Source of the DNA: Aerococcus sp. HMSC062A02
Lineage (GTDB): Bacteria > Bacillota > Bacilli > Lactobacillales > Aerococcaceae
Length of the DNA stretch: 64,000 nt
Assembly: GCF_001809535.1 (NCBI RefSeq)
Contig: NZ_KV797925.1
Location: 1-64,000 of the forward strand
Reading direction: 5' to 3'
A program made the translations under genes and the position numbers. Below, one piece after another: positions 12,085-52,079 of the stretch. The notes beneath the pieces are model-generated. The model ran no database searches. It was not told the DNA's origin and was given only the letters and a program-made list of their open reading frames with translations. How positions within the stretch are numbered: the stretch's first letter is position 1; each line of letters starts with the position of its first letter.

Positions 12085-12948
12085 CTATATCTTTTCTGCC
12101 ATTTTACGAATATAAACAAAGGCTAAGATGCCCGATAGAATCGTAATCACATAAGTAATCGCAGAGCCAAAACCAAAGTTCAAGAATGAAAAGGTGTTCA
12201 TGTAATTATAAACTAAGAGGGTTTGGGTCTCGTAGCGATAACCAGCTAGGGCTACAATTTCATCAAAGACGTTTAAGGCCGCCATGGTCATTTGGATCAA
12301 GGCCAGACCAATGGAGGGCCAAATAAGAGGCAGGGTGACCATGCGGAAATCCTGCCAGGCTGTGGACCCGTCCACTCGGGCTGCCTCATAGAGCTCGCGG
12401 GGGATAGTCTGCAAGTTAGCCAAGATAAGCAAGGCACAGAAAGGGATCACCCGCCAAGCCACAACCAAGGCAGCAATCATCATGAGCATCCAGCGATTGG
12501 CCGTCCAAGCAATGGGTTGGTCAATCAGTTGCAAGTTTATCAATAGCTTGTTTAAAAAACCGTAGCCTGGATAAAAGATAAAATTCCATATAATCCCATT
12601 AACAATTGGGGGTAGAGCCCAAGGGATAATCGCAATCGCCGTCAATACTGGCGTTATCACATGTCGGCGGTTGAGCATCAGGGCAATGGCTAAGCTCATG
12701 ATCAAACCAATAACCAGGACAAAAATTAAAACCAGCAAGGAATTGATGAGAGCCTGGTAAAAGTCCGAAGACTGTAAAACGGTCAGGTAATTCTCTAAGC
12801 CCACAAAACGCACATTACCGGGCTCAGTTAATTTTAAGCGGTAGAAACTATAGACCAAGGTCCGGCAAATGGGGTAGACCACAAAGACCAGCATGATCAC
12901 GAGCATGGGGCTCAGTAGCAACCAAGGTTTGAAGCGTTTAAACATCAT
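12085..12948 (-). CDS. Carbohydrate ABC permease (MalF/LacF type)
   Basis: A 287-residue permease with six hydrophobic segments and the EAA loop LYEAARVDGSTAWQDFRMVTLP. It is the partner of the MalG-type protein. Although the binding-protein gene precedes it on the same strand, the two are separated by 467 nt that hold a strong terminator and a repeat element, so this gene probably receives only part of the upstream transcription. Confidence 0.9.
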   Translation of the reverse strand: MMFKRFKPWLLLSPMLVIMLVFVVYPICRTLVYSFYRLKLTEPGNVRFVGLENYLTVLQSSDFYQALINSLLVLIFVLVIGLIMSLAIALMLNRRHVITPVLTAIAIIPWALPPIVNGIIWNFIFYPGYGFLNKLLINLQLIDQPIAWTANRWMLMMIAALVVAWRVIPFCALLILANLQTIPRELYEAARVDGSTAWQDFRMVTLPLIWPSIGLALIQMTMAALNVFDEIVALAGYRYETQTLLVYNYMNTFSFLNFGFGSAITYVITILSGILAFVYIRKMAEKI

Positions 12949-21563: not shown

Positions 21564-22445
21564 TTATACTTCCAAGGGCTTATCTGTCTGCGTGGCCCAT
21601 TCCATCAAGGAGCCGTCATACATGGCAACCTGGTCTTGACCAAGATAATTCAGAACAGCTCGGAGCCAGCAAGCCGCAATCCCAAAACCGCAATAGGTAA
21701 TGACGCGCTTATCAGGATCGAGCACAGCAAAGTCTGCAAAGACCTGCCGCAAATCTTTTTCAGGCAAGAGCGCGCCTGTCTCAGGATCAGATAAGGACCC
21801 GAAGAAGACATTAACTGCGGATGGAATGTGTCCCACTCGGTCGTCACCGAAGCCAGCAAATTCCCCCTCGTATTGGGCCTTAGGAAGACTATCTAAGATC
21901 ACAACGCTCGGATCTTCGACGGCTGCTTCCACTTCCGTCAGATCAGCAAGCAGGTCTTCTCGACGTTGCAAGCTTAGCTGGCCCTGCTTGCTTTCAGGTA
22001 TTTCTTCTGTTAGGGCCCGACCTTCACGCTCCCACTTATTCAAGCCCCCCTCAAGGATAGCAATTTGTTTTTCGGGAAAGCCCTCATAAGCCAGCTGCCA
22101 GGCCAAGCGTGCCGCCCACATATTCGCTGTAAAATCCGCGCCGACTTGGGCTCCACTGTCATAGATAACAACCTGGCTATCTTCAGCAATCCCCAAGTCT
22201 TCCATATTTTTCACGAAAGGCTCATGGGCAGTGACTTGGAAGGGAATCGGGTCATGACTTGCTGCTTCAGCCAGTTGGTCATAGAAGACAGCCCCTGGTA
22301 AATGTTTGGCCGCATACTGGTCCTTACCAGAGCGCAAGAACTCTCCTTCTGGATCATTAAAGAAAACGGTAGCATCCACCAAAACTAAGTTTGGATCGGC
22401 TAGCTGACTCGCTAATTCTTCAGTTGATACAATATTTTTCATCAA
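21564..22445 (-). CDS. 3-mercaptopyruvate/thiosulfate sulfurtransferase (tandem rhodanese)
   Basis: A 293-residue cytoplasmic protein with two rhodanese domains (about 5-135 and 155-290), like SseA/TST. The first keeps the fold only (VVIYDSGAQVGADF lacks the Cys); the second has the active Cys in ITYCGFGIAACW. Enzymes of this type move sulfane sulfur, and in some systems selenium, through a Cys persulfide or perselenide. The N-terminal EEL...DPNLVLVDATVFF start is normal. It is the last gene of the selenium-linked operon, 7 nt after the radical SAM gene, and is the third rhodanese protein in it. Confidence 0.85.
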   Translation of the reverse strand: MMKNIVSTEELASQLADPNLVLVDATVFFNDPEGEFLRSGKDQYAAKHLPGAVFYDQLAEAASHDPIPFQVTAHEPFVKNMEDLGIAEDSQVVIYDSGAQVGADFTANMWAARLAWQLAYEGFPEKQIAILEGGLNKWEREGRALTEEIPESKQGQLSLQRREDLLADLTEVEAAVEDPSVVILDSLPKAQYEGEFAGFGDDRVGHIPSAVNVFFGSLSDPETGALLPEKDLRQVFADFAVLDPDKRVITYCGFGIAACWLRAVLNYLGQDQVAMYDGSLMEWATQTDKPLEV

Positions 22446-22452
22446 AAACCTC

Positions 22453-23415
22453 CTACGCTTCAGCCAAGGCGACTTGGGCTGGACATTCTGTCGTCAATTC
22501 GCCTCCACAAGATGAACCAAAACCAGCTGTACAGCCATAACAATAATCGCGGAAGAGGATCTCCCGTCCAAGATCTTCTTTATCAATCACATCGGTAATT
22601 GTATCTCCCGTACTAATCGGCAGGTTAGACATTTGATGGAAGTCACAATCATAGAGTTGGCCGTCGTAACCCACTGACAGCTGGGACCGGCACATCAGAT
22701 TAGGTACCGTCACGGGATTAAAGGCATTGCGAAGGATATCCATATACTCGTCATAATAGTCCATATCATTTAGGAAATCTTCAAAGTAGCCCATAGGCAG
22801 GTTGGTAATGGTATATAGATTCGTAAATTCAATGCCATACTGACCTAAGTGGTTGCGATAGTCTACCGCCAAGGCGTTTTGCTCTGGGGGTAAAGTGGCC
22901 CCTAGCGGATTATGGACGAGGTTTAAAGGTCGGTCTTTATCAATGCCATAGCCATAAGAATTCAGTTCTTGGAGGACCTTGATTAACTTCTTAAAGACCC
23001 CGCTACCGCGTACGACATCCACATTGTCTTCAGTGTAACAAGGCATCGAAATAAAAATCGTCACAGGATATTTTTGATAGAACTCACGCATTCTTTTATT
23101 CAAAAAAGTCCCATTCGTTCGGACAATCACTTCGTCCACATAGGGAGCCCCTTTCTCTGCCAGATAGGTGAAGCCTGGGTGCATAGTAGGTTCTCCCCCT
23201 GTAATATCCAGGGTCGTCACTTCATCATGGGCCTTGAGAAATTCAATGCAGGCATCCATAATCTCGGGCGACATCATTTCATTCTTCGAGTCGCGCATCA
23301 CGTGACAGTGCCGGCAACGCAGGTTACATACCTTACCAATATTCACTTGCAGAGTAGTAATTGCTGAGGTTTTCCGGTATTCAGGTTCGATCCGGTCAAT
23401 AAAATCACTTGACAT
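22453..23415 (-). CDS. Radical SAM protein, ArsS-like (rSAM/selenodomain type)
   Basis: A 320-residue radical SAM enzyme. The [4Fe-4S] site is CNLRCRHC (CxxxCxxC, residues about 31-38), followed by the SAM-binding GGEPTMHP. The C-terminal domain carries DYCYGCTAGFGSSCGGE, the Cys-rich signature of the radical SAM/SeCys family (TIGR04167, which includes arsenosugar protein ArsS). Some relatives have selenocysteine in that motif; all positions are Cys here. ArsS joins the 5'-deoxyadenosyl group of SAM to dimethylarsenic. With selenoprotein, rhodanese and glycosyltransferase genes in the same operon, a chalcogen acceptor is equally plausible. No arsenite methyltransferase gene is in the window. 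Confidence 0.8.
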   Translation of the reverse strand: MSSDFIDRIEPEYRKTSAITTLQVNIGKVCNLRCRHCHVMRDSKNEMMSPEIMDACIEFLKAHDEVTTLDITGGEPTMHPGFTYLAEKGAPYVDEVIVRTNGTFLNKRMREFYQKYPVTIFISMPCYTEDNVDVVRGSGVFKKLIKVLQELNSYGYGIDKDRPLNLVHNPLGATLPPEQNALAVDYRNHLGQYGIEFTNLYTITNLPMGYFEDFLNDMDYYDEYMDILRNAFNPVTVPNLMCRSQLSVGYDGQLYDCDFHQMSNLPISTGDTITDVIDKEDLGREILFRDYCYGCTAGFGSSCGGELTTECPAQVALAEA

Positions 23416-23427
23416 TATTTTCTCCTT

Positions 23428-24330
23428 TCATTTTTGCTGATCATCGAGGGACAACCAAGTCTGGTAGAGATGATCTTTTAGTGCCTCTTTTTTAGTAATT
23501 CTAGGTGTCGTGACCAGCGTCTGCTGGTAAGGCTTAGTCACCACATACTGGGTCGGGTCCTGGCTCGGGCAGTGAAGGCGTCCTCGAGCTAGGCCTTCTA
23601 CACTCAGCCAATATCTCTCTTGGTCTAAAGAAAAGTATTCTGGATGAACGAGGCAGGCCGCTGCCAGGCTATCCCAGTTATAGAAGCCTTTGATGCCATA
23701 CTCTAAGTCATTATCGCGAAACCAAGGCGCTGAATATTTTTGAATCATTTGGACAATAGGGCCTTCCACTCGGTCGAAAGCTGCTTCATATTGCTCCTGG
23801 GTAAAGAGCAGGTCCAAGCAATGATTGCCTGTCATGACACGGACATTATGCCCCTTGGTTAAGACTTGATAGGCAGCTTGAGGATCACAGGAGAAATTCA
23901 ATTCCAACATTTCCTGCTTGGCGAAGTTCAGGGGCGCCGTAGTGCCTCCCATCAAGCTAAAACCAGCAACTTGATCAAAGAAATCTGGATTAAGAAGAGA
24001 AGCTCCCATAAGATTCGTCAGAGATCCTGTCGCCAAGACATACAAGTCTCCTGCATATTGGGCAGCCAAATCAGCCAGAAGACGACTAGCTGGATTGAGA
24101 TAATCGCCACAAGCCTGACCGCCCTTAGCATAGGGCAGATCAAGCTGAAGCGTCTCTAGGAGATGCTGGGTATCCCGGTCCACCAGGTCGATCCCCTTAT
24201 TCCCGAACGTCGATGTCACAGCGATCAGCTCCACTTCAGGACAGCCTAATAAATAAAGCAGCGCCATCCCATCATCCACATCACGATTAGCCGTAAAAAA
24301 AGTATTGTCAAAATCAATGGCTACTTTCAT
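23428..24330 (-). CDS. Atypical nucleoside hydrolase-like protein
   Basis: A 300-residue protein of the inosine-uridine nucleoside hydrolase fold. The usual N-terminal DxDxGxDD calcium motif is split: DFDNT at residues 6-10 and DVDDG at about 17-21, with a short insertion, so ligand geometry may differ. The core TGSLTNL strand, SLMGGT and the FNWDSLAA-like YNWDSLAAAC element near the C-terminus are present. If active, it would release a base from a nucleoside. In the radical SAM operon this would fit removal of adenine from a 5'-deoxyadenosyl product. It is distinct from the standard nucleoside hydrolase at 43.5 kb. It overlaps the upstream membrane-protein gene by 17 nt. Confidence 0.65.
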   Translation of the reverse strand: MKVAIDFDNTFFTANRDVDDGMALLYLLGCPEVELIAVTSTFGNKGIDLVDRDTQHLLETLQLDLPYAKGGQACGDYLNPASRLLADLAAQYAGDLYVLATGSLTNLMGASLLNPDFFDQVAGFSLMGGTTAPLNFAKQEMLELNFSCDPQAAYQVLTKGHNVRVMTGNHCLDLLFTQEQYEAAFDRVEGPIVQMIQKYSAPWFRDNDLEYGIKGFYNWDSLAAACLVHPEYFSLDQERYWLSVEGLARGRLHCPSQDPTQYVVTKPYQQTLVTTPRITKKEALKDHLYQTWLSLDDQQK

Positions 24331-24748
24331 CGGTTAAACCCTTTCTAGACCTAGCCTTTATCCCAGCAATGATCATTTGGAAGAGGCTTAGAGCAAGTAG
24401 AAGCAAATAGTAGAGATAGTAGGTTTCCAATTGGTCGAAAGTCCAGAATAAACTATAGAACGTAAAGGCTAAAGTCAAGACTAGCCCTCCATAGGCTGAT
24501 CGCCGTTTGTAACGAAGCAGAAGTATAACGGCCACTATAAGACACAAGCTAGGCAGTATCCAGGTCCAAAAATCATGATAAAGTTCAGCTTTCCTTGAAC
24601 GATAGAGTACTGACCGCATAAAATTCAAATGATTCGCGTAAAAACCACTAACTTGCGTCATTAAAAAGAGCGCGAGAACTTGTAAGCCACGCAAACTTGC
24701 GATCACTAGCTGGACAGGCCTTGACTTAATCAAGGATTTCCACATCAT
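24314..24748 (-). CDS. Small membrane protein of unknown function
   Basis: A 144-residue protein with four probable membrane segments (residues about 15-35, 62-80, 87-107 and 108-128) and positively charged ends. I do not recognise the family. It overlaps the rhodanese lipoprotein gene upstream by 23 nt and the nucleoside hydrolase-like gene downstream by 17 nt, so it is translated within the selenium-linked operon. The overlap makes an independent function unlikely; it may anchor or assist one of the neighbouring envelope proteins. The long overlap at its 5' end leaves the exact start uncertain. Confidence 0.6.
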   Translation of the reverse strand: MMWKSLIKSRPVQLVIASLRGLQVLALFLMTQVSGFYANHLNFMRSVLYRSRKAELYHDFWTWILPSLCLIVAVILLLRYKRRSAYGGLVLTLAFTFYSLFWTFDQLETYYLYYLLLLALSLFQMIIAGIKARSRKGLTDESSH

Positions 24749-25772
24749 TTCCGCGGGGATCTCCTACTTGTACCGGGTACTTGCTTGGATTTTTTTGATG
24801 GTTTAAATTCCATTCATACCAACCCCCATCTTGGACCGAAATATCATGCCAGCCTGCTTGTTTAGCAACAAAGAAGGCTGTAGTATTACGCCAGCCTGTT
24901 CCACAATAGAATGTTACCGGTTTATCTTGACTAATTCCCCATTCTTCCCAATCAGCAAATACTGCTTGTGGCTCACGAATTGTGCCATCTTCATTGGTTA
25001 GATAGTTGACGTCAGCTGCTGTTTCGCTGGCTTTGGCCCAGACTGCTCCTTTGATCTCGCCTGCCTTGTCAATGTAGTCATAACCTGATGTTTCACCAAT
25101 AAACTCAGGCCAAGAGCGAACGGAAGCAATCACCAAGTTTGGTTGGGACTCCTTAGCTGCTAGGAGGTCATCCGACGTCTTAATATAGGCTTCGGGCCGA
25201 CCTGGATAATCCCCGCCAAAATCTTTAGCTGCGGTAACTTGAGGACTTTCCTCAGTAAGTTCATAACCTGCCTTCTCCCAGGCTGCTTTACCACCGTCAA
25301 TAATGTGCACTTCATCTACACCCAGGTAGTAAGCGGCAAAGGCCACACGGGAAGCCGCATTGACATCCTCACCATAAACAAAAAGTGGTGTATCCTTGCT
25401 TACCCCCTTAGCGAGAAAGGCTTTGACCAAGTCATCATCTGTTAAGAGATTCCAATCACTCTCTTCTGTCTCAATCTCCATCGTATCCATGAGTTGAGCA
25501 CCTGGCAGGTGGCCTTTTTTGTAGGCTGCATCACCATAACCTGCCTCTAGAATCTTGGCTGTATCCTGCTGGTCAATCTGGTCTTTAGCCCAAGCGGCAT
25601 CCACAAAAATATCCTCTTTCTTGCTTTCGCCTGCTTTGACCAGATGGGTCTCCTCTTTTGAAGGAGGGGCTGGTTGCGTTGAGTCGCTAGCTGTTGAACT
25701 TTGCCCTTGGCAAGCCCCTAAAAGAAAACTAGCTAGTCCACATACTGCTAAAATTTTTTTAGTCCAATGCAT
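24726..25772 (-). CDS. Rhodanese lipoprotein, YnjE-like
   Basis: A 348-residue extracytoplasmic sulfurtransferase. The signal peptide ends in LGAC (Cys20), then a Ser/Thr-rich linker. Two rhodanese domains follow: the first (about 55-175) has no active Cys (VYGEDVNAA), the second (about 195-340) has YCGTGWRNT. The CGTGWR active loop resembles that of E. coli YnjE, which is encoded near TVP38-type genes and selD. The protein would transfer sulfur or selenium on the outer face of the membrane. It is followed by the small membrane protein gene in the same operon. Confidence 0.8.
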   Translation of the reverse strand: MHWTKKILAVCGLASFLLGACQGQSSTASDSTQPAPPSKEETHLVKAGESKKEDIFVDAAWAKDQIDQQDTAKILEAGYGDAAYKKGHLPGAQLMDTMEIETEESDWNLLTDDDLVKAFLAKGVSKDTPLFVYGEDVNAASRVAFAAYYLGVDEVHIIDGGKAAWEKAGYELTEESPQVTAAKDFGGDYPGRPEAYIKTSDDLLAAKESQPNLVIASVRSWPEFIGETSGYDYIDKAGEIKGAVWAKASETAADVNYLTNEDGTIREPQAVFADWEEWGISQDKPVTFYCGTGWRNTTAFFVAKQAGWHDISVQDGGWYEWNLNHQKNPSKYPVQVGDPRGNDVEILD

Positions 25773-25800: not shown

Positions 25801-26478
25801 TTATTTATCGCGGTAAAATTTTTGAATACTTTCAATCGACTTTCCCTGCCTGAATAGGGCTTGGGCTCTTTGCATCTTAAATAGGGTTCTCAGATAGCCC
25901 TTAGCTTCAAAGCGTCTCGCTGAGGTATAGATCTTCTGCTCTGCCACCCGGCAATAAACACCAGCCTCCTTGGCCCGAATCGAAAGATCATAGTCTTCCA
26001 TTAACGGGTAGGAACGAAAGCCTCCCAAAGCCTGGTAAAAATCGCGGCGCATATGCATGCCCTGGTCTCCAAAGGCAATATGGCGGTGACTTAGCCGCCA
26101 ATTGGATCCTGCTGCAATCAGACGCATCCGCCAATCCTCACTGGTAAAGCGCAAGGGAAAGGCAGCAAAGGGGACTTCCTGACCATTCTTTTGTACCTCC
26201 TTAAGAGGGCAAGTTTTAAAGAAAGAATCTGCATGCAGAAAGAATAAGATTTCACCCTGACTGGCAAGCACGCCTGTATGAAGCTGTTGCCCCCGCCCCG
26301 GCTGGGAGTTAACGACTGAGTAGCCTGCCGCCCTGATTAAATGGGCTGTACCGTCCCGGCTGCTCCCATCCACGAAGATCAGCTCATGCGGAATATCTGG
26401 GTTAAACACCTCTAAATGATCAAACAATTGATCCAGTTGGTTTCGCTCATTAAAAACAGGAATGATAATACTAATCAT
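25801..26478 (-). CDS. Family 2 glycosyltransferase, rSAM/selenodomain-associated type
   Basis: A 225-residue GT-A glycosyltransferase without membrane segments. The N-terminal SIIIPVFNERNQL, the VDGSSRDGT nucleotide-binding strand, PGRGQQLHTG and the FFLHADS metal-binding DxD-like motif match TIGR04283 ('transferase 2, rSAM/selenodomain-associated'). It would transfer a sugar in the cytoplasm; donor and acceptor are unknown. The gene starts 3 nt after the TVP38-like gene. A second, different associated glycosyltransferase is encoded at the head of the operon, so the pair is the same as in known rSAM/selenodomain neighbourhoods. Confidence 0.8.
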   Translation of the reverse strand: MISIIIPVFNERNQLDQLFDHLEVFNPDIPHELIFVDGSSRDGTAHLIRAAGYSVVNSQPGRGQQLHTGVLASQGEILFFLHADSFFKTCPLKEVQKNGQEVPFAAFPLRFTSEDWRMRLIAAGSNWRLSHRHIAFGDQGMHMRRDFYQALGGFRSYPLMEDYDLSIRAKEAGVYCRVAEQKIYTSARRFEAKGYLRTLFKMQRAQALFRQGKSIESIQKFYRDK

Positions 26479-26481
26479 CAG

Positions 26482-27195
26482 CTAGTTAAGGGATTCCTTT
26501 TTCTTCTTGCGGTCGGTATAGACCCGGCGCAGGAGGGCAACTAAGACGCTCAAAGCGAATAGGATCAACAGACCCGTCACAAGCTTCTGAGCGCCACCTG
26601 TCAACATACCACCTACATAAGAATAAATAATGGTCGCCGGTAATTGACCGATCCCTGTGGCAATAAAATAACCCCAAAAGCCCATCGATGTTAAGCCTGC
26701 TGCATAAGATACAATATCAAAGGACATAAAGGGCAGCAAGCGGGCCACTAGGATGGTCTGCATGCCATAGCGGTCAAAAAAGTTTTCGATGCTTTCTAAG
26801 CCCCGCTTAGTCGTAAAGCGAACAACCACATCACGCCCTAAGATGCGGGCAATGTAAAAGCATAGGGCAGCCCCCACCATCGCACTCGACCATGACAAGA
26901 TAGCTCCCTGCCACCAACCAAAGAGATTAGCATTGGTCACCGTAATCAAGAAAGCAGGGAGCGGGGCGATCACTGCCGTTAAAACCATTAGGAAAAATGA
27001 AATAAGTGCCGCATAGCCCCCGTATGAATCGATAAATTCGCGCACTTCATCAAAATTCCCCGTTGCAAACATCTTAAAGACCTGGTTGATCCATTCCCTA
27101 ACTGGGGGGATCAGAAAATAAATAGCCAGGCAAAGGCCCACAATACCTAGCAATAACCAGCGTCGCTTACTGGCTTCGTTAGTTTTCTTCGTCAT
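26482..27195 (-). CDS. TVP38/TMEM64 (DedA-like) membrane protein
   Basis: A 237-residue integral membrane protein with about six hydrophobic segments. The SNARE-associated/VTT domain is seen in LTAVIAPLPAFLITVTNANLFG, split around the re-entrant helix, and in GRDVVVRFTTKRGLE and ARLLPFMSFDIVSYAAGL. DedA-like proteins move lipids or anions, and E. coli relatives YdjX/YdjZ share a cluster with the rhodanese YnjE. Here too the gene is next to rhodanese lipoprotein genes. GGAGGAGAC precedes the ATG. A hairpin with T run separates it from the upstream rhodanese gene. Confidence 0.8.
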   Translation of the reverse strand: MTKKTNEASKRRWLLLGIVGLCLAIYFLIPPVREWINQVFKMFATGNFDEVREFIDSYGGYAALISFFLMVLTAVIAPLPAFLITVTNANLFGWWQGAILSWSSAMVGAALCFYIARILGRDVVVRFTTKRGLESIENFFDRYGMQTILVARLLPFMSFDIVSYAAGLTSMGFWGYFIATGIGQLPATIIYSYVGGMLTGGAQKLVTGLLILFALSVLVALLRRVYTDRKKKKESLN

Positions 27196-27286: not shown

Positions 27287-28048
27287 TTATTTCTCTGACA
27301 AATCAAAGCCGTCCCATTCCTTAGTACCTTCTGTGGCATTGATGGTGTTGTAACCTTCATCTGTTAGGGCTTGAGCGATGGTATTTGATTTATTACCGGA
27401 GTAGCAGTAAGTCAAGATAGTTTTATCTTTAGGAATATCAGCTTTCTTCGCATCCAAGTCGTCAACTTCGATATTTACTGCCCCTTTAACGTGGCCCTTA
27501 TCGTAGTCCTTAGCCTTACGTGCATCGATGATGTAGTATTCGCCATCATTGTTGTCAACCATTTCTTGGAATTTGTCTCCTAGCACATAGCCAACTTGAG
27601 TCATTGTTGAATAGTCATGGTCTTTAACCCCGTCAGCATTGTAAACTTCTTCAAAGCCGTTTTTAGCCAAGATGTCTGCCCCTTCCTGGCTCTTGTTCCC
27701 AGTGTTGCAGATCGTTACTACATTTTCTTTCTTATAGTTGCTTAAACGATCGAGGTTATTTTCAAGTTCATCGACAGGGATATTGATAGCCCATTTCACA
27801 TGGCCTTCTTTGTATTCATCTTCTGGACGAACGTCGATGACGAGGTAGTCTTCTTTCTTCTTGTCATCAGCTAAAGCTTCGTCGAGCTCTTCGCCGGATA
27901 TAGTTTTAACTTCAGCCGCTTGGTCAGCTGTAGCTTCTGTTTGAGCATCATTTGAACCGCTAGAAGCAGAGTCTGTGTTATCTGCACAAGCAGCTAGTGA
28001 CAATGAAGTAAGAGCAGTTAAACTGAGTAATAATAATTTTTTTGACAT
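27287..28048 (-). CDS. Tandem rhodanese lipoprotein with two active cysteines
   Basis: A 253-residue lipoprotein with lipobox LAAC (Cys21) and a short Ser/Asp-rich linker. Two complete rhodanese domains follow: about 50-145 with VTICNTGNKS and about 155-250 with LTYCYSGNKS. Both keep the active Cys, unlike most tandem rhodaneses. The protein is outside the membrane and could pass sulfane sulfur or selenium between domains. The selenoprotein gene lies 21 nt upstream with the same orientation, which is the closest link between a rhodanese and the predicted UxxC protein. AAAGGAG precedes the ATG. Confidence 0.82.
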   Translation of the reverse strand: MSKKLLLLSLTALTSLSLAACADNTDSASSGSNDAQTEATADQAAEVKTISGEELDEALADDKKKEDYLVIDVRPEDEYKEGHVKWAINIPVDELENNLDRLSNYKKENVVTICNTGNKSQEGADILAKNGFEEVYNADGVKDHDYSTMTQVGYVLGDKFQEMVDNNDGEYYIIDARKAKDYDKGHVKGAVNIEVDDLDAKKADIPKDKTILTYCYSGNKSNTIAQALTDEGYNTINATEGTKEWDGFDLSEK

Positions 28049-28069: not shown

Positions 28070-28855
28070 TTAAATTTCCCATTTCTTCAATTCTTCGGCA
28101 CCGCCATGAATGGCAAAATCGAGCAGAGCGGTGAGGCCCTGGCGTTCGGTTTCTAAGTCAAAAGCTTGCCCCGCAAAAGTATGGCCCAGGGCAAAGGGGG
28201 TCTCAAGCATGCGAGGTGGGCGGGCTTTTTCCGCCACATTAGGCAGGTGCATCATGGAAGCCGTGCGTATGCCCCGGCTTTCAATTTCGCGCTGAATCAG
28301 CCCCACGGACTGGTGGCAAATATATCAGCCAGGAGACAGCAAGGCAATATCGACCTGGTCCTCCTGCAATTGGTCAGCGATAGCAGGTGCCGTCTTATTC
28401 ATGAGCTTCTTAACCTGGGGGATGTAGCCCATCAAACCGAAGTGGTGAGGAGCTACTTCTCCAATCTTACCCTCCCTAGCGAATTGCCGGAGGATATCCA
28501 GGGGGAAGACCAAGTTAATATCTTCGAGGGCATCTCGAATATCATAGTGTTCGTGGTTTACCGTAAGGTCCTCATAGTCCACATCTCCGGGAATAATACG
28601 GAAAGTTGGATCTCCCTTCTTCGTCTCAAAAGGCGGATCCGTCTTCAAGCGGACCCCCGCCGTGGTAATGAAAGCAACTCGGGCTTCATCTAGTGCCTTA
28701 TCCATATGCGCAATTTTGGGTGCCGAATTGATGGTCACGACCATGTGCTGGGCGACACGACTAATAACAACTTCTTTTAAACTTCGGCGATTTTTTTTAA
28801 CGATAAAAATCCTCCTTTCTTTATCCAGGCAATCTTTTAGCGATATAGTCTTCAA
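28070..28855 (-). CDS. Selenoprotein of the GrdB/PrdB-like family, UGA read as Sec (paralogue 2)
   Basis: One reading frame interrupted by a single UGA at 28325-28327. Read through, it gives about 261 residues with the motif LLSPG-U-YICHQSVG, i.e. UxxC at residues 177-180 counted from the TTG at 28855. Cys-containing relatives of the 'selenoprotein B' family have CPVCHQ at this place, which supports Sec. The N-terminal part shows FITTAGVRLKTDPPFE, FRIIPGDVDYEDL and FPLDILRQFA; the part after UGA shows the family's REIESRGI and PPRMLETPFALGHTF. A SECIS-like hairpin follows the UGA. The start is unclear: AAAGGAGG at 28812-28819 has no ATG, GTG or TTG at a proper distance. Partner thiols and substrate are unknown; selenium-dependent redox or reductase chemistry is inferred. 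Confidence 0.75.
28298..28312 (-). promoter_or_regulatory. SECIS-like hairpin after the UGA
   Basis: Minus strand: CAGTCC, GTG loop, GGGCTG. The loop begins 19 nt after the UGA, exactly as in the paralogue at 50.6 kb. Small apical loop and position fit bacterial SECIS elements recognised by SelB. Confidence 0.65.
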
Positions 28856-30329
28856 TCATCTGGATAAAGTCAGTACTTAAAAAGCGTGAAATGACCTGGT
28901 AAGTTTCCTGGTTACGCGCCAATTTATCAGCTTTATTATATTGCACATAGGCCATGGCGCACCAAGTCAAGCCCCGCAGGCAAGTGAAGACCAAGTACTG
29001 GTCGAGCTTAGCCTGGTCAATCGCAATCGGAGAGTGGGCATCATAGGCCTGGATGAAGCTTTCTAAAGACTGGTCATCATAGAGGTAGTCAGTCTTCCAA
29101 AGCGTCGTTGTCGGCGCTAAGAAATGTCCCAAATCCTGTTCACGTTCCCCAATCAGCGGCTTCTCCCAGTCAATGACATAGGACTGGTCGCCTGGGTTGA
29201 TCAGGAAATTAGAGGCATTGAGTTCCGTATTAATGATACAAGGATTAACAAGCTGGGCGCTGTGGTCATAGACCTTTAAGCCATCTAAGAGCCGCTGAAT
29301 CCGCTGAGTCACTTCCTCCGACCGCCCCTCCCAGGACCGGTAGTGGGCAAACATGGTCTCAAACTCTTCATACATCACCACAAAGGGTTGGCCCACATAA
29401 ATGAGATGGTCTGCCTGCTTAGGATCTTGTTGGTGAATTTGCGCCAATAATTCCGCTGCAATCTGGCTATCCGTCTCATAGTCCAGCTGGCGACCAGGCA
29501 GGAAGGCTTCCACTAAATAACCCGCCCCAATCAAGGGGTGGTAGTCACAAAGCGCCAAGGGTTTGGGCGTTACGCCACTCGCTTCGAGCGCCTTCAAAGC
29601 CCCGTACTCATACTGGATCTGCTGGTCGAGATGCAATTGTGAGCCCAAAGCAATCCGCAACAATTTCCTGCCTTGGTCAAAGATAAAATTGGCATTATAT
29701 TCCCCTTGGGCTAGGAAAGTCGCCTCAGGGTCCCCCGTCAAGATAGCCGCAATATCTTCTTTATCATCAATATCACGGATGGCTGGCAGGAGTTCATAAC
29801 TGATCCCGGCTTGGTCAGCATGTGAAAGCGTCGCCGCCAAAACAGAGGTATGGCCATAACTTTCCAGGGCAAATAGGTCGGGATAATAGGCGGACATGCC
29901 GATCAGCCCATAGCCCCCATCCAAGCTAGGCGCCAAAACCAAGTCGCAGGAATCCAAATAAGTGAAGGCTTGGTCGACCTGGCTAGTAGATAAATCATAA
30001 AGATCTGACCCCATAAGAGCCACCTGGTCATAACCCCGGTTGAAACCATCTCGAATCGCCCGAGACATACGTTCACCTAGGCTATCGCCCTCCTGCCAAA
30101 ACACCGCTTCCTGGTCAAGGTTTAAAAAGTCACCCAAGTCATAGCCGGCTTGGTCAGCCGTTAGCCAGAAACAGAGGTCTGCTTGGCTCGCCTTAGCCCG
30201 CTGATAATTCATCTCTAAGAGATACTGGCTAAGCGCTTGGGTTTGATCGACCGTCAAGAAATCAGACAGACGACTCTTCGTCTCGCCTTTCAGTGGCAAG
30301 CGAGTCATTATAATTAATAGTTTTTTCAT
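28821..30329 (-). CDS. Fusion of rSAM/selenodomain-associated glycosyltransferase and phosphotransferase-like domain
   Basis: A protein of about 502 residues. Residues 1-200 match TIGR04282 ('transferase 1, rSAM/selenodomain-associated', CofC-like): LLIIMTRLPLKGETKSRL, GDSLGERMSRAI, LMGSDLYDL, DGGYGLIG. Residues about 205-500 resemble aminoglycoside/choline phosphotransferases; the Brenner HxD loop reads NTELNASN and the following DxD-type strand reads VIDWEKP, so the catalytic Asp position carries Glu. Activity of this domain is therefore uncertain. The start is the ATG of MKKLLIIM; the frame is open upstream across the structured leader and its terminator, which is not coding. It has no clear ribosome-binding site. 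It is the first gene of the selenium operon and overlaps the selenoprotein frame. Confidence 0.75.
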   Translation of the reverse strand: MKKLLIIMTRLPLKGETKSRLSDFLTVDQTQALSQYLLEMNYQRAKASQADLCFWLTADQAGYDLGDFLNLDQEAVFWQEGDSLGERMSRAIRDGFNRGYDQVALMGSDLYDLSTSQVDQAFTYLDSCDLVLAPSLDGGYGLIGMSAYYPDLFALESYGHTSVLAATLSHADQAGISYELLPAIRDIDDKEDIAAILTGDPEATFLAQGEYNANFIFDQGRKLLRIALGSQLHLDQQIQYEYGALKALEASGVTPKPLALCDYHPLIGAGYLVEAFLPGRQLDYETDSQIAAELLAQIHQQDPKQADHLIYVGQPFVVMYEEFETMFAHYRSWEGRSEEVTQRIQRLLDGLKVYDHSAQLVNPCIINTELNASNFLINPGDQSYVIDWEKPLIGEREQDLGHFLAPTTTLWKTDYLYDDQSLESFIQAYDAHSPIAIDQAKLDQYLVFTCLRGLTWCAMAYVQYNKADKLARNQETYQVISRFLSTDFIQMIEDYIAKRLPG

Positions 30330-30360
30330 AGCTTTTGTATGTAAAGGTTTCCATATAAAC

Positions 30361-30555
30361 AAAAAAGGTGCTGACAGCAAATGCCAACACCCCTTTGAAT
30401 TATGGATACCCGCCGGTAATTTGTTGAATGATGCGGCGACGAAACCTCTTCGCATACTAAATAAGCCACTAACTTTCTTATTTACTATGCCCCACAAGCA
30501 AGCTCATAATATCCCCATTAGAAAAGTGTATAGCATTTACCAGCTGTCTTCCTAG
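30361..30555 (-). promoter_or_regulatory. Structured leader with attenuator of the selenium operon
   Basis: Between the promoter and the first gene the transcript can form a 14-bp hairpin (GCATAGTAAATAAG / CTTATTTAGTATGC, 30452-30490), a CGCCG/CGGCG pairing, and a terminator (GGTGTTGGCA / TGTCAGCACC plus six T, 30361-30391). The terminator stands about 30 nt before the ATG, so expression needs read-through. I could not match it to a riboswitch class I know. Confidence 0.55.
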
Positions 30556-50139: not shown

Positions 50140-50982
50140 ATGAAACATGTTGATTCAACGATGCCCACCAATCATGATCGTCAAACGATTGAAGCGCAAA
50201 CCGCAAAGTCTCATAATCTGGAGGCAATGACCCTCACTTGGAGACAAGCACCACAAATCGCACCGGTGATTGATAAACCCTTATCCGATCTCCGTGTCGC
50301 CATTGCCGCTTCTACCGGTGTCCACCTTAGAACGGATAAACCTTTTATTCTTACAGGAGATGCCTCTTACCGTATTATCCCAGGAGACGCTGATTACCGA
50401 GATCTGACCATCAGTCACGTCCGTTATCCGAATCAGGCTGCCCACCGCGATCTTGATGTTGTCTATCCTTTGAAAACTCTTCGCTATATGGCTGAAAAAA
50501 ATATCATCGGCGAAGTTTCACCAGTCAATATTTCCTGGATGGGACACGTCCCACGCGTTGATGTGCTGATTGAAGTAACAGCTAAACAAATTGCTGAAAC
50601 TTTAGAAGAAAACCAAGTGGACTTGGTGCTCCTCTCGCCTGGCTGATTTATGTGTCACCAGTCCGTGGGATTGGTCGCTCGAGAAATCGAAAGCCGTGGG
50701 ATAAGAACTGTTCTTGTCGGACATTTCCCTCATATTGCTGAAAGGATCCGTCCACCGCGCATGTATATTGTCGATGCCCCACTTGGAGAAACTTTCTCAA
50801 GTGCCTATGACTACCACATGCATGAAGTGATTGTCCACGAAGCTCTCGAATTTGCTCGCACTGGTGGGAGTGAATTAATTTACTACCCACCTTATGTCTG
50901 GAAAGATTATACCGGTCTGGTTCTTCCTGAAGGTGTTGAAGATCCACAACCGATTATTATCAAGAACCCTAGAGCACTATAA
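50140..50982 (+). CDS. Selenoprotein of the GrdB/PrdB-like family, UGA read as Sec (paralogue 1)
   Basis: A single frame of 280 residues if UGA at 50644-50646 is read as selenocysteine: LLSPG-U-FMCHQSVG, i.e. UxxC at residues 169-172. Before the UGA the protein has the family's GVHLRTDKPFIL, YRIIPGDADYRDL, VYPLKTLRYMA and GEVSPVNISWMGH; after it, REIESRGIRTV, ERIRPPRM and APLGETF. This matches Cys versions with CPVCHQ and, more distantly, the catalytic region of glycine reductase GrdB (UxxC). AAGGAGG is 7 nt before the ATG, and a consensus promoter and a terminator make it a single-gene unit. It is divergent from the pdh operon. A function in thiol or selenol redox chemistry is likely; the substrate is unknown. 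Confidence 0.8.
50657..50675 (+). promoter_or_regulatory. SECIS-like hairpin after the UGA
   Basis: ACCAGTCC, GTG loop, GGATTGGT: 8 bp with one G-U pair. The loop begins 19 nt after the UGA. The paralogue at 28.3 kb has the same loop, with a lower stem kept by a U-A to U-G and a G-U to G-C change. Confidence 0.7.
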
Positions 50983-51066: not shown

Positions 51067-51981
51067 CTATTCTGACTTAAAGATCAAGCGCATATAGCCA
51101 TAGAGAACATAGGCAACAATAGCTATAGCGACTACGGTCTCCAGCAATACAAGCAGACTCGTCAGCGCATTATTCCATCCCAAAACGGGCAGGGCTAATT
51201 TCAAAGAGAGAGCCGAAATGACGAGGGGGAAGGTTAAAGCTGCTGAGGTAGGAAAGAAACCTAGACGAATCAATCGAGGAAGTTGGACCAAGATGCTGAA
51301 GTAAAGCAGCTGAGAGAAGACTAGGAGAATAGTCAAGAGCAAGTGAGAAGGTTCTTGGAAACTATTCACATAACCAGCTACTAAGAGGGAGAAAGGCGCA
51401 CATAAGATCGCCGTTGTGAGCTGGGCAGGTTGAGGCAAGTCGCGTAAGCCATAAACCCGGTAGAGCATAAAAGGCATCACGGCAATCCCTCCAATTAAAC
51501 CAAACCAGAACAAAATCTGTCCCAAGAAAAAGTTATCGTAAACAGGGGCCGTCACACTAGCCACCACAAAACCAACAAAAACAACCCCCCAAGAAGGAAA
51601 GACGACATTCATTTTGCGTTGGGGAAGATAGCGTGCGAGATAACGAATCACTAAAACTAAATTAAAGATTAAACCTACATACCAAATCACTTCAGCTAGC
51701 GTGATTGGTAGCTTCAATAAAGGCGTTAAATAAGTTGATAATAACATGATCGACATGGGATAAGTCGGAAAGACAGAAGCTGGTAGGGGGGCACTCATCT
51801 CTTCTTTAAAGGCTGAATAATTCACAAATAAATTCAAGGTATAAGCCATAAAAAGAAGCAAAGCAAGGCCACCCAAAACCAGGCGAATCCCCGCCCCGTA
51901 AGACTGAAGTAAGTTACCCAAAGTCGCTAGCGCCAAAATTAAGCCAGACATAGCGAAAGGCTGTCTCTTCAAATAATTCAT
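51067..51981 (-). CDS. TDT-family transporter (TehA/SLAC1-like)
   Basis: A membrane protein of about 304 residues with ten hydrophobic segments, matching the TDT family that includes TehA (tellurite), Ssu1 (sulfite) and SLAC1 (anion channel). The N-terminal FAMSGLILALATLGNLLQ and the central FPTYPMSIMLLSTYL strand of the pore are characteristic. It would move small anions or weak acids. The start is at the ATG of MNYLKRQ, 7 nt after AGGAGG. It is convergent with the selenoprotein gene; a role for sulfite or selenite is only suggested by that position. Confidence 0.75.
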   Translation of the reverse strand: MNYLKRQPFAMSGLILALATLGNLLQSYGAGIRLVLGGLALLLFMAYTLNLFVNYSAFKEEMSAPLPASVFPTYPMSIMLLSTYLTPLLKLPITLAEVIWYVGLIFNLVLVIRYLARYLPQRKMNVVFPSWGVVFVGFVVASVTAPVYDNFFLGQILFWFGLIGGIAVMPFMLYRVYGLRDLPQPAQLTTAILCAPFSLLVAGYVNSFQEPSHLLLTILLVFSQLLYFSILVQLPRLIRLGFFPTSAALTFPLVISALSLKLALPVLGWNNALTSLLVLLETVVAIAIVAYVLYGYMRLIFKSE

Positions 51982-52079
51982 AAGATTTCCTCCTAAAAAA
52001 GATATACTAATCACTCGAATTATAGCAATAAATGAAGCCAATCACAAATCAGACTTTCCGTTCAAAACATATGGGAATA

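Follow-up and report, generated by a model that had tools for sequence, protein, structure and literature searches.

A 2026 review counts 119 selenoprotein families or subfamilies, including GrdB, PrdB, ArsS-type radical SAM proteins, rhodanese forms and ArsM (PMC13188914). PrdB (TIGR04483), a protein of D-proline reductase, is about 240 amino acids long, carries a UxxCH active site encoded by a selenocysteine (Sec) UGA with a downstream SECIS hairpin, and has the pyruvoyl subunit PrdA as its partner. GrdB, which shares the family PF07355 with GrdF and GrdH, is larger (about 430 amino acids) and bears its Sec in the C-terminal part. In arsenic metabolism, the early steps of arsenosugar synthesis involve SsArsS together with SsArsM (PMC8552651), and ArsM acts on trivalent arsenic (PMC12159101). 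Here, we analyse a 64,000-nt stretch of Aerococcus sp. HMSC062A02 (positions 1–64,000 of contig NZ_KV797925.1; hereafter the window) and find that one of its genes, which we denote gene 1, is, judging from sequence comparisons, very probably a functional selenoprotein gene, belonging to a solo PrdB-like subfamily that stands apart from PrdB itself. No solo PrdB-like group stands among the 119 families of the review (PMC13188914), and the gene 1 protein passes no model of NCBIfam release 20 (2026). Gene 1 would add a selenoprotein subfamily that has no curated model and would extend the GrdB/PrdB type beyond the amino-acid reductases known so far.

Two open frames on the minus strand (28325–28855 and 28070–28306) lie in one reading frame, separated by a single TGA (28327–28325). 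An earlier note on this DNA had joined them across the UGA as LLSPG-U-YICHQSVG, and our translation gives the same read-through, continuing to a TAA stop at 28072–28070. Gene 1 thus defined (28073–28804, minus strand) encodes 244 amino acids, with the UGA (28325–28327, minus strand) at residue 160 in a UxxC motif and a predicted Sec-spanning peptide LLSPG-Sec-YICHQSVGLIQR. The junction proposed by the earlier note stands, but the upstream end of the gene is probably not TTG 28855. The start is more likely ATC 28804–28802, because a Shine–Dalgarno sequence (AGGAGG, 28811–28816, minus strand) lies 6 nt ahead of it and the homologues have an ATG or GTG start codon in the corresponding position. 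Gene 1 would then require an unusual start codon, ATC, with no ATG, GTG or TTG at the expected position (28802–28804).

The window holds a second copy that the earlier note, which had rightly taken gene 1 for a selenoprotein gene, had overlooked. Gene 2 (50140–50982, plus strand; 280 amino acids) is a paralogue of gene 1, 44% identical overall and 22 kb away, and has the same layout: a 168-codon ORF, a TGA (50644–50646, plus strand; residue 169, motif UxxC) and a 110-codon ORF, reading LLSPG-U-FMCHQSVG across the junction. A GRDB-family search of the whole genome gave four loci, of which two are true GrdB genes located on contig 8 and the other two are the genes in the window, so that the subfamily occurs twice in one genome. 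An orthologue of gene 2 lies near selA in another genome (G092, locus L068), where its flanking neighbour corresponds to 51067–52041 of the window. Automatic annotation would break both gene 1 and gene 2 in two at the UGA.

Comparison of gene 1 with five homologues showed more change at third codon positions than at first (1.4–2.3-fold) or second positions (1.9–4.7-fold), and an amino-acid identity that is similar on the two sides of the UGA (48–71% before and 47–67% after; 71% and 67%, respectively, for the homologue L030). These two features argue that the reading frame 3′ of the UGA is conserved and under purifying selection. At the Sec column itself, all 12 sampled members of the Lactobacillales clade, which span several genera, have UGA and none has Cys; six further solo relatives have UGA as well. 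The earlier note had pointed to random stops in close relatives as the pattern to look for at this column, and the 12 close family members show none. It had also mentioned Cys forms with CPVCHQ; we saw none, and the sole Cys relative is a true PrdB. This gene (L083), in one genome of the phylum, has TGT at the Sec column and is the only Cys form that we met.

A predicted SECIS hairpin follows the UGA in both genes. That of gene 1 (28298–28312, minus strand; CAGUCC-GUG-GGGCUG) has a 6-bp stem, and that of gene 2 (50657–50675, plus strand) an 8-bp stem and a GUG loop, the loop lying 18 nt past the UGA in each. Over 48 nt the folding energies are −9.0 kcal/mol for gene 1 and −16.4 kcal/mol for gene 2, whose hairpin is the stronger. 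Both fall within the limits published for bacterial SECIS elements (loop of 3–9 nt with a G in the first two, stem of 4–16 bp, spacing of 16–37 nt and minimum free energy of at most −7.5; PMC13188914); some relatives' hairpins are weaker than −7.5 in the 48-nt fold. This general rule discriminates weakly, since 745 of the 2,402 TGAs on the two strands of the window have a stem of at least 5 bp somewhere in the allowed range. Discrimination comes instead from the exact geometry that the two hairpins share: a stem of at least 6 bp at exactly the 18-nt geometry follows three of the 2,402 TGAs, two of which are those of gene 1 and gene 2, whereas the frame around the third is open for three codons on each side. 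Only gene 1 and gene 2 pair this hairpin with long frames on both sides.

An equivalent hairpin with a GUN or GGU loop occurs in the 12 close and six more distant solo relatives. In the alignment of these 18 sequences, 88.9% of hairpin cells are paired, compared with 13–50% when the pairing is slid by 1–3 columns, and one pair occurs as G–C, A–U and G–U; 8 of 500 shuffles reach the observed score. Covariation is modest, with changes on both sides at that one pair only. Across the hairpin, suppression of synonymous change is evident at the serine codon TCC and weak as a five-codon window in genes of the gene 1 type (type 1), so the case for a SECIS element rests on pairing and geometry. Separately, the SECIS of true PrdB genes is strikingly frozen, as 11 Lactobacillales PrdB genes (L040–L058) have no synonymous change at codons +5 to +12 past the UGA.

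These observations bear on the simplest alternative, that the UGA of gene 1 is a mutation or a sequencing error in a dying gene. The missing ATG, GTG or TTG at the expected start would fit such a gene. Decay is refuted by the UGA column, which is the same in 12 of 12 members of the family, drawn from several genera, and recurs in the paralogue, and purifying selection on the codons past the UGA together with the conserved hairpin beside it adds to the case; we consider this explanation exceedingly improbable.

The genome encodes the machinery that Sec decoding would need. Its selA and selB score 589.9 and 367.5 bits (cut-offs 267.9 and 242), and selD, which has a TGA of its own, is likewise above its curated cut-off; the three genes adjoin each other on contig 8, and a tRNA-Sec with anticodon UCA lies on contig 44. 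The set of selA, selB, selC and selD for which the earlier note proposed a genome search is therefore complete. On the basis of this anatomy and its conservation, SelA and SelD would charge tRNA-Sec, and SelB would bind the hairpin just 3′ of the UGA and insert selenocysteine at residue 160; from sequence, Sec decoding at the gene 1 UGA appears near certain. A general reassignment of UGA as an amino-acid codon has a probability close to nil. Nothing beyond gene 1 and gene 2 speaks for a changed code, which is refuted by the dedicated machinery and by the use of TGA as a normal stop in the window, where it ends 6 of the 53 ORFs of at least 200 amino acids, in line with the earlier note's view of UGA as an ordinary stop here.

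The contig 8 region also contains grdX, two copies each of grdE and grdB, and yedF, grdA, grdC and grdD (names assigned by sequence). The Rfam element SECIS_4 lies 3′ of both grdB genes, and grdA reads CFVU. With at least six candidate selenoproteins, Aerococcus sp. HMSC062A02 is clearly an organism that makes use of selenocysteine. The region (L018/L019) is a complete glycine reductase locus in a Lactobacillales genome, with two grdE–grdB sets and the sel genes, and stands beside hydantoinase- and isochorismatase-like genes.

Across 395 Lactobacillales genomes, the gene 1 protein follows the Sec machinery. We counted as hosts the 34 genomes in which the protein has a match at 1e-10; selA is present in all 34 and in 7 of the 361 non-hosts, and the best match carries a TGA in 34 of 34 hosts. 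The sampled order is identified as Lactobacillales from a same-order locus that matches Enterococcus raffinosus DNA at 92%. Within the genus, the gene is present only in the three members that have selA, and a family-wide search found no further members with the gene beyond these three. With selA in 41 of the 395 genomes, selenoproteins are not as rare in Lactobacillales as the earlier note had supposed.

The closest curated families place the gene 1 protein near, and outside, PrdB and GrdB. It matches Pfam GRDB (PF07355) at 42.9 bits and gene 2 does so at 24.4 bits (cut-off 22), in both cases over the C-terminal part of the profile only (positions 216–344 or 266–344 of 347). The match ends just before the UxxC motif, and the two proteins, at 244 and 280 amino acids, lack the N-terminal part of the GrdB/GrdF/GrdH proteins. 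The best NCBIfam model is PrdB (TIGR04483), whose cut-off of 300 bits lies above the 153.7 and 145.5 bits that the two proteins score. The gene 1 protein resembles PrdB in length, in its UxxCH site, in the Sec UGA and in the downstream SECIS, with 32–38% identity; it differs in the hairpin sequence and in the residues around Sec, which read SPGUYICHQSVG or SPGUFMCHQSVG in the gene 1 clade and TAGUGTCHRTA or TAGUGTCHRSA in PrdB. In the tree, the 12 sequences from Lactobacillales fall into one clade (support 98/98), and 19 solo sequences, the 18 above and a long-branched SAR202 relative, split from PrdB with support 99/99; PrdB itself is poorly resolved.

Could gene 1 nevertheless encode a true PrdB, or a GrdB, engaged in amino-acid (Stickland) reduction? 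Its top curated match is PrdB, at the 153.7 bits given above, and the genome carries a full glycine reductase locus. That score is, however, only about half the PrdB cut-off, and the branch is separate. None of the 11 hosts of the clade has a PrdA match over the cut-off, only matches at the level of GrdE, whereas two PrdB genomes score 983 and 960 bits. The match to GRDB covers its C-terminal part only, true GrdB genes lie elsewhere in the genome, and there is no GrdE in the neighbourhood of gene 1. We regard this assignment as highly unlikely. The gene 1 group is a sister group working without PrdA, and the gene 1 protein, as its sequence indicates, stands alone while being related both to PrdB and to the Sec-bearing C-terminal part of GrdB. 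The label GrdB/PrdB-like of the earlier note therefore holds at the superfamily level, given the Pfam match, but the protein is neither GrdB nor PrdB proper.

Solo PrdB-like selenoproteins also occur in other Firmicutes (L070, L074, L076, L090, L092 and L093), with the motifs UPICNQSVG, UPLCNQSVG or UPICQQSGG and the same hairpin, in varied neighbourhoods; because these wider relatives lie in other neighbourhoods, the solo family as a whole has no tie to the gene cluster described below. A pattern search of genome contigs with a two-sequence alignment, the patterns of which were too specific, returned one distant relative only, from SAR202. This gene, on a Chloroflexota metagenome contig (L028, 4019–4540), is PrdB-like, has an in-frame UGA (IPIUPGCTN) and sits on a very long branch.

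An AlphaFold model of the gene 1 protein built with 29 sequences (pLDDT 93.5, pTM 0.92) places Sec160 between a strand (residues 153–157) and a helix (residues 163–175) that begins with the Cys of the UxxC motif. U160 and C163 are thus predicted to lie at the turn before the helix, where redox pairs are usually found. A sequence comparison with solved structures found none similar to the gene 1 protein, and Foldseek and VIA-align searches with the model gave no convincing match (best E value 7e-3; best Z score 9.0, to microcystinase), so the fold comparison points to no substrate.

Gene 1 lies in a run of genes on the same strand. Upstream is a fusion of a TIGR04282-type transferase with an APH-type kinase (28821–30497; PF09837 and PF01636; 160.4 bits, cut-off 134), for which the coordinates are ORF bounds and the true start is probably inside. 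Gene 1 is followed by a twin-rhodanese lipoprotein (27287–28048), a VTT/TVP38-type membrane protein (26482–27195; PF09335), a TIGR04283 glycosyltransferase (25801–26478; 226.3 bits, cut-off 182) and a rhodanese lipoprotein with weak similarity to ExtH/SseA (24726–25772). Four more genes complete the run: a small membrane protein with a weak MauE-like match (24314–24748), a nucleoside hydrolase (23428–24330; PF01156), the radical SAM protein ArsS in a Cys form (22453–23415; TIGR04167, 361.7 bits, cut-off 300) and a rhodanese-type sulfurtransferase (21564–22445), all on the minus strand. The name TIGR04282/TIGR04283/ArsS/rhodanese cluster suits this run better than the sulfur/selenium operon of the earlier note.

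We compared this neighbourhood in the ten genomes with type 1, within the fetched regions. TIGR04283 and the VTT protein are present in all ten, the TIGR04282–APH fusion lies one or two genes from the selenoprotein in nine (in the tenth, G182, it is on another contig), and the twin-rhodanese gene, the nucleoside hydrolase and ArsS are present in nine, seven and four, respectively. TIGR04282 occurs in 18 of the 395 Lactobacillales genomes, all 18 with selA, and the ten in which the TIGR04282 frame is long and APH-fused coincide exactly with the ten type 1 genomes of the sample. In two relatives of the same genus, the cluster directly adjoins selA–selB–selD. In relatives, the clusters further encode a YnjB-family transporter (NF008633), a protein with a YdjY domain and ResA/DsbD-type thiol proteins, and also carry TIGR04169, ‘arsenosugar biosynthesis-associated peroxidase-like’. 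Because the selenoprotein is so regularly associated with one defined set of genes, its function would become testable in an uncharted pathway. A DNA search of plasmids with the operon gave no match, and literature searches on TIGR04282/TIGR04283 and ‘selenodomain’ found nothing on the gene 1 system.

The cluster resembles what NCBI names the arsenosugar suite: ArsS, TIGR04282 and TIGR04283 are all over their cut-offs in the same-strand run of the window, and relatives carry TIGR04169 and ArsM. It differs in having an APH-type kinase fused to TIGR04282 and, as a constant member, a PrdB-like selenoprotein; the 2026 review describes neither feature, nor does any NCBIfam model that these proteins pass. 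ArsM-like proteins (176–275 bits) occur in seven of the ten type 1 genomes, and none of nine comparison genomes has an ArsM-like match above 70 bits. Three of the ten lack a good ArsM match, one of these assemblies being 85% complete. In Aerococcus sp. HMSC062A02 itself, the ArsM-like protein (354 amino acids; 189.5 bits, cut-off 263) is encoded on another contig.

Without PrdA, the gene 1 protein could not cleave proline in the way known for PrdB. It may instead be a selenol/thiol reductase serving the pathway encoded around it, which would comprise the TIGR04282–kinase fusion, TIGR04283, the rhodanese lipoproteins, often a nucleoside hydrolase and ArsS, and an ArsM-like protein encoded elsewhere in the genome; we judge the chances of such a reductase role to be about even. 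Selenol/thiol pairs are by nature suited to reducing pentavalent methylated arsenic. Because of this chemistry, of the roles of SsArsS and SsArsM in arsenosugar synthesis and of the action of ArsM on trivalent arsenic, we rank first a function in which the gene 1 protein would most likely keep an organometalloid intermediate reduced, with arsenic as the first candidate. Arsenic as the substrate is a tentative and rather doubtful proposal, unevenly supported because ArsS is present in four of ten type 1 clusters and three of ten genomes lack a good ArsM match. We hold just as tentatively the fuller proposal that a stand-alone PrdB-like selenoenzyme has been recruited in Lactobacillales to serve as reductase in an arsenosugar-type pathway for organoarsenicals, some relatives having a Sec-containing ArsM. 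If true, two steps of one metalloid pathway would depend on selenocysteine, linking selenium use to possible arsenic-sugar chemistry in bacteria in which neither was expected.

The main rival is that the gene 1 protein acts on selenium or sulfane sulphur rather than arsenic, as a selenol reductase or carrier that, for example, passes selenide to SelD or takes part in selenite or tellurite reduction. It draws its standing from the prominence of rhodaneses in the cluster and the absence of ArsS from six of ten clusters, and we give it an appreciable chance, though one well below even. Three of the cluster proteins are of rhodanese type, two of them weakly matching ExtH of selenite/tellurite operons; the transporter, the YdjY-domain protein and the DsbD/ResA-type thiol proteins of relatives' clusters, and the placement of the cluster next to selA–selB–selD in the two same-genus relatives, would fit as well. 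However, 24 of the 34 host genomes are without type 1, which is accordingly not needed for Sec synthesis, and ArsS, the nucleoside hydrolase and the glycosyltransferases seem ill-suited to a plain supply of selenide.

A Sec-containing ArsM is itself a known selenoprotein family (PMC13188914). Four type 1 genomes encode an ArsM with an in-frame TGA of its own, which reads MYGTUVAGAI or HATUVAGAI where it could be read, and the ArsM genes of G325 and G130 lie close to sel genes. Such ArsM loci with an in-frame TGA, which in two genomes lie near selD, were located at 12391–13170 of L112, 9401–10153 of L110 and 6587–7285 of L111.
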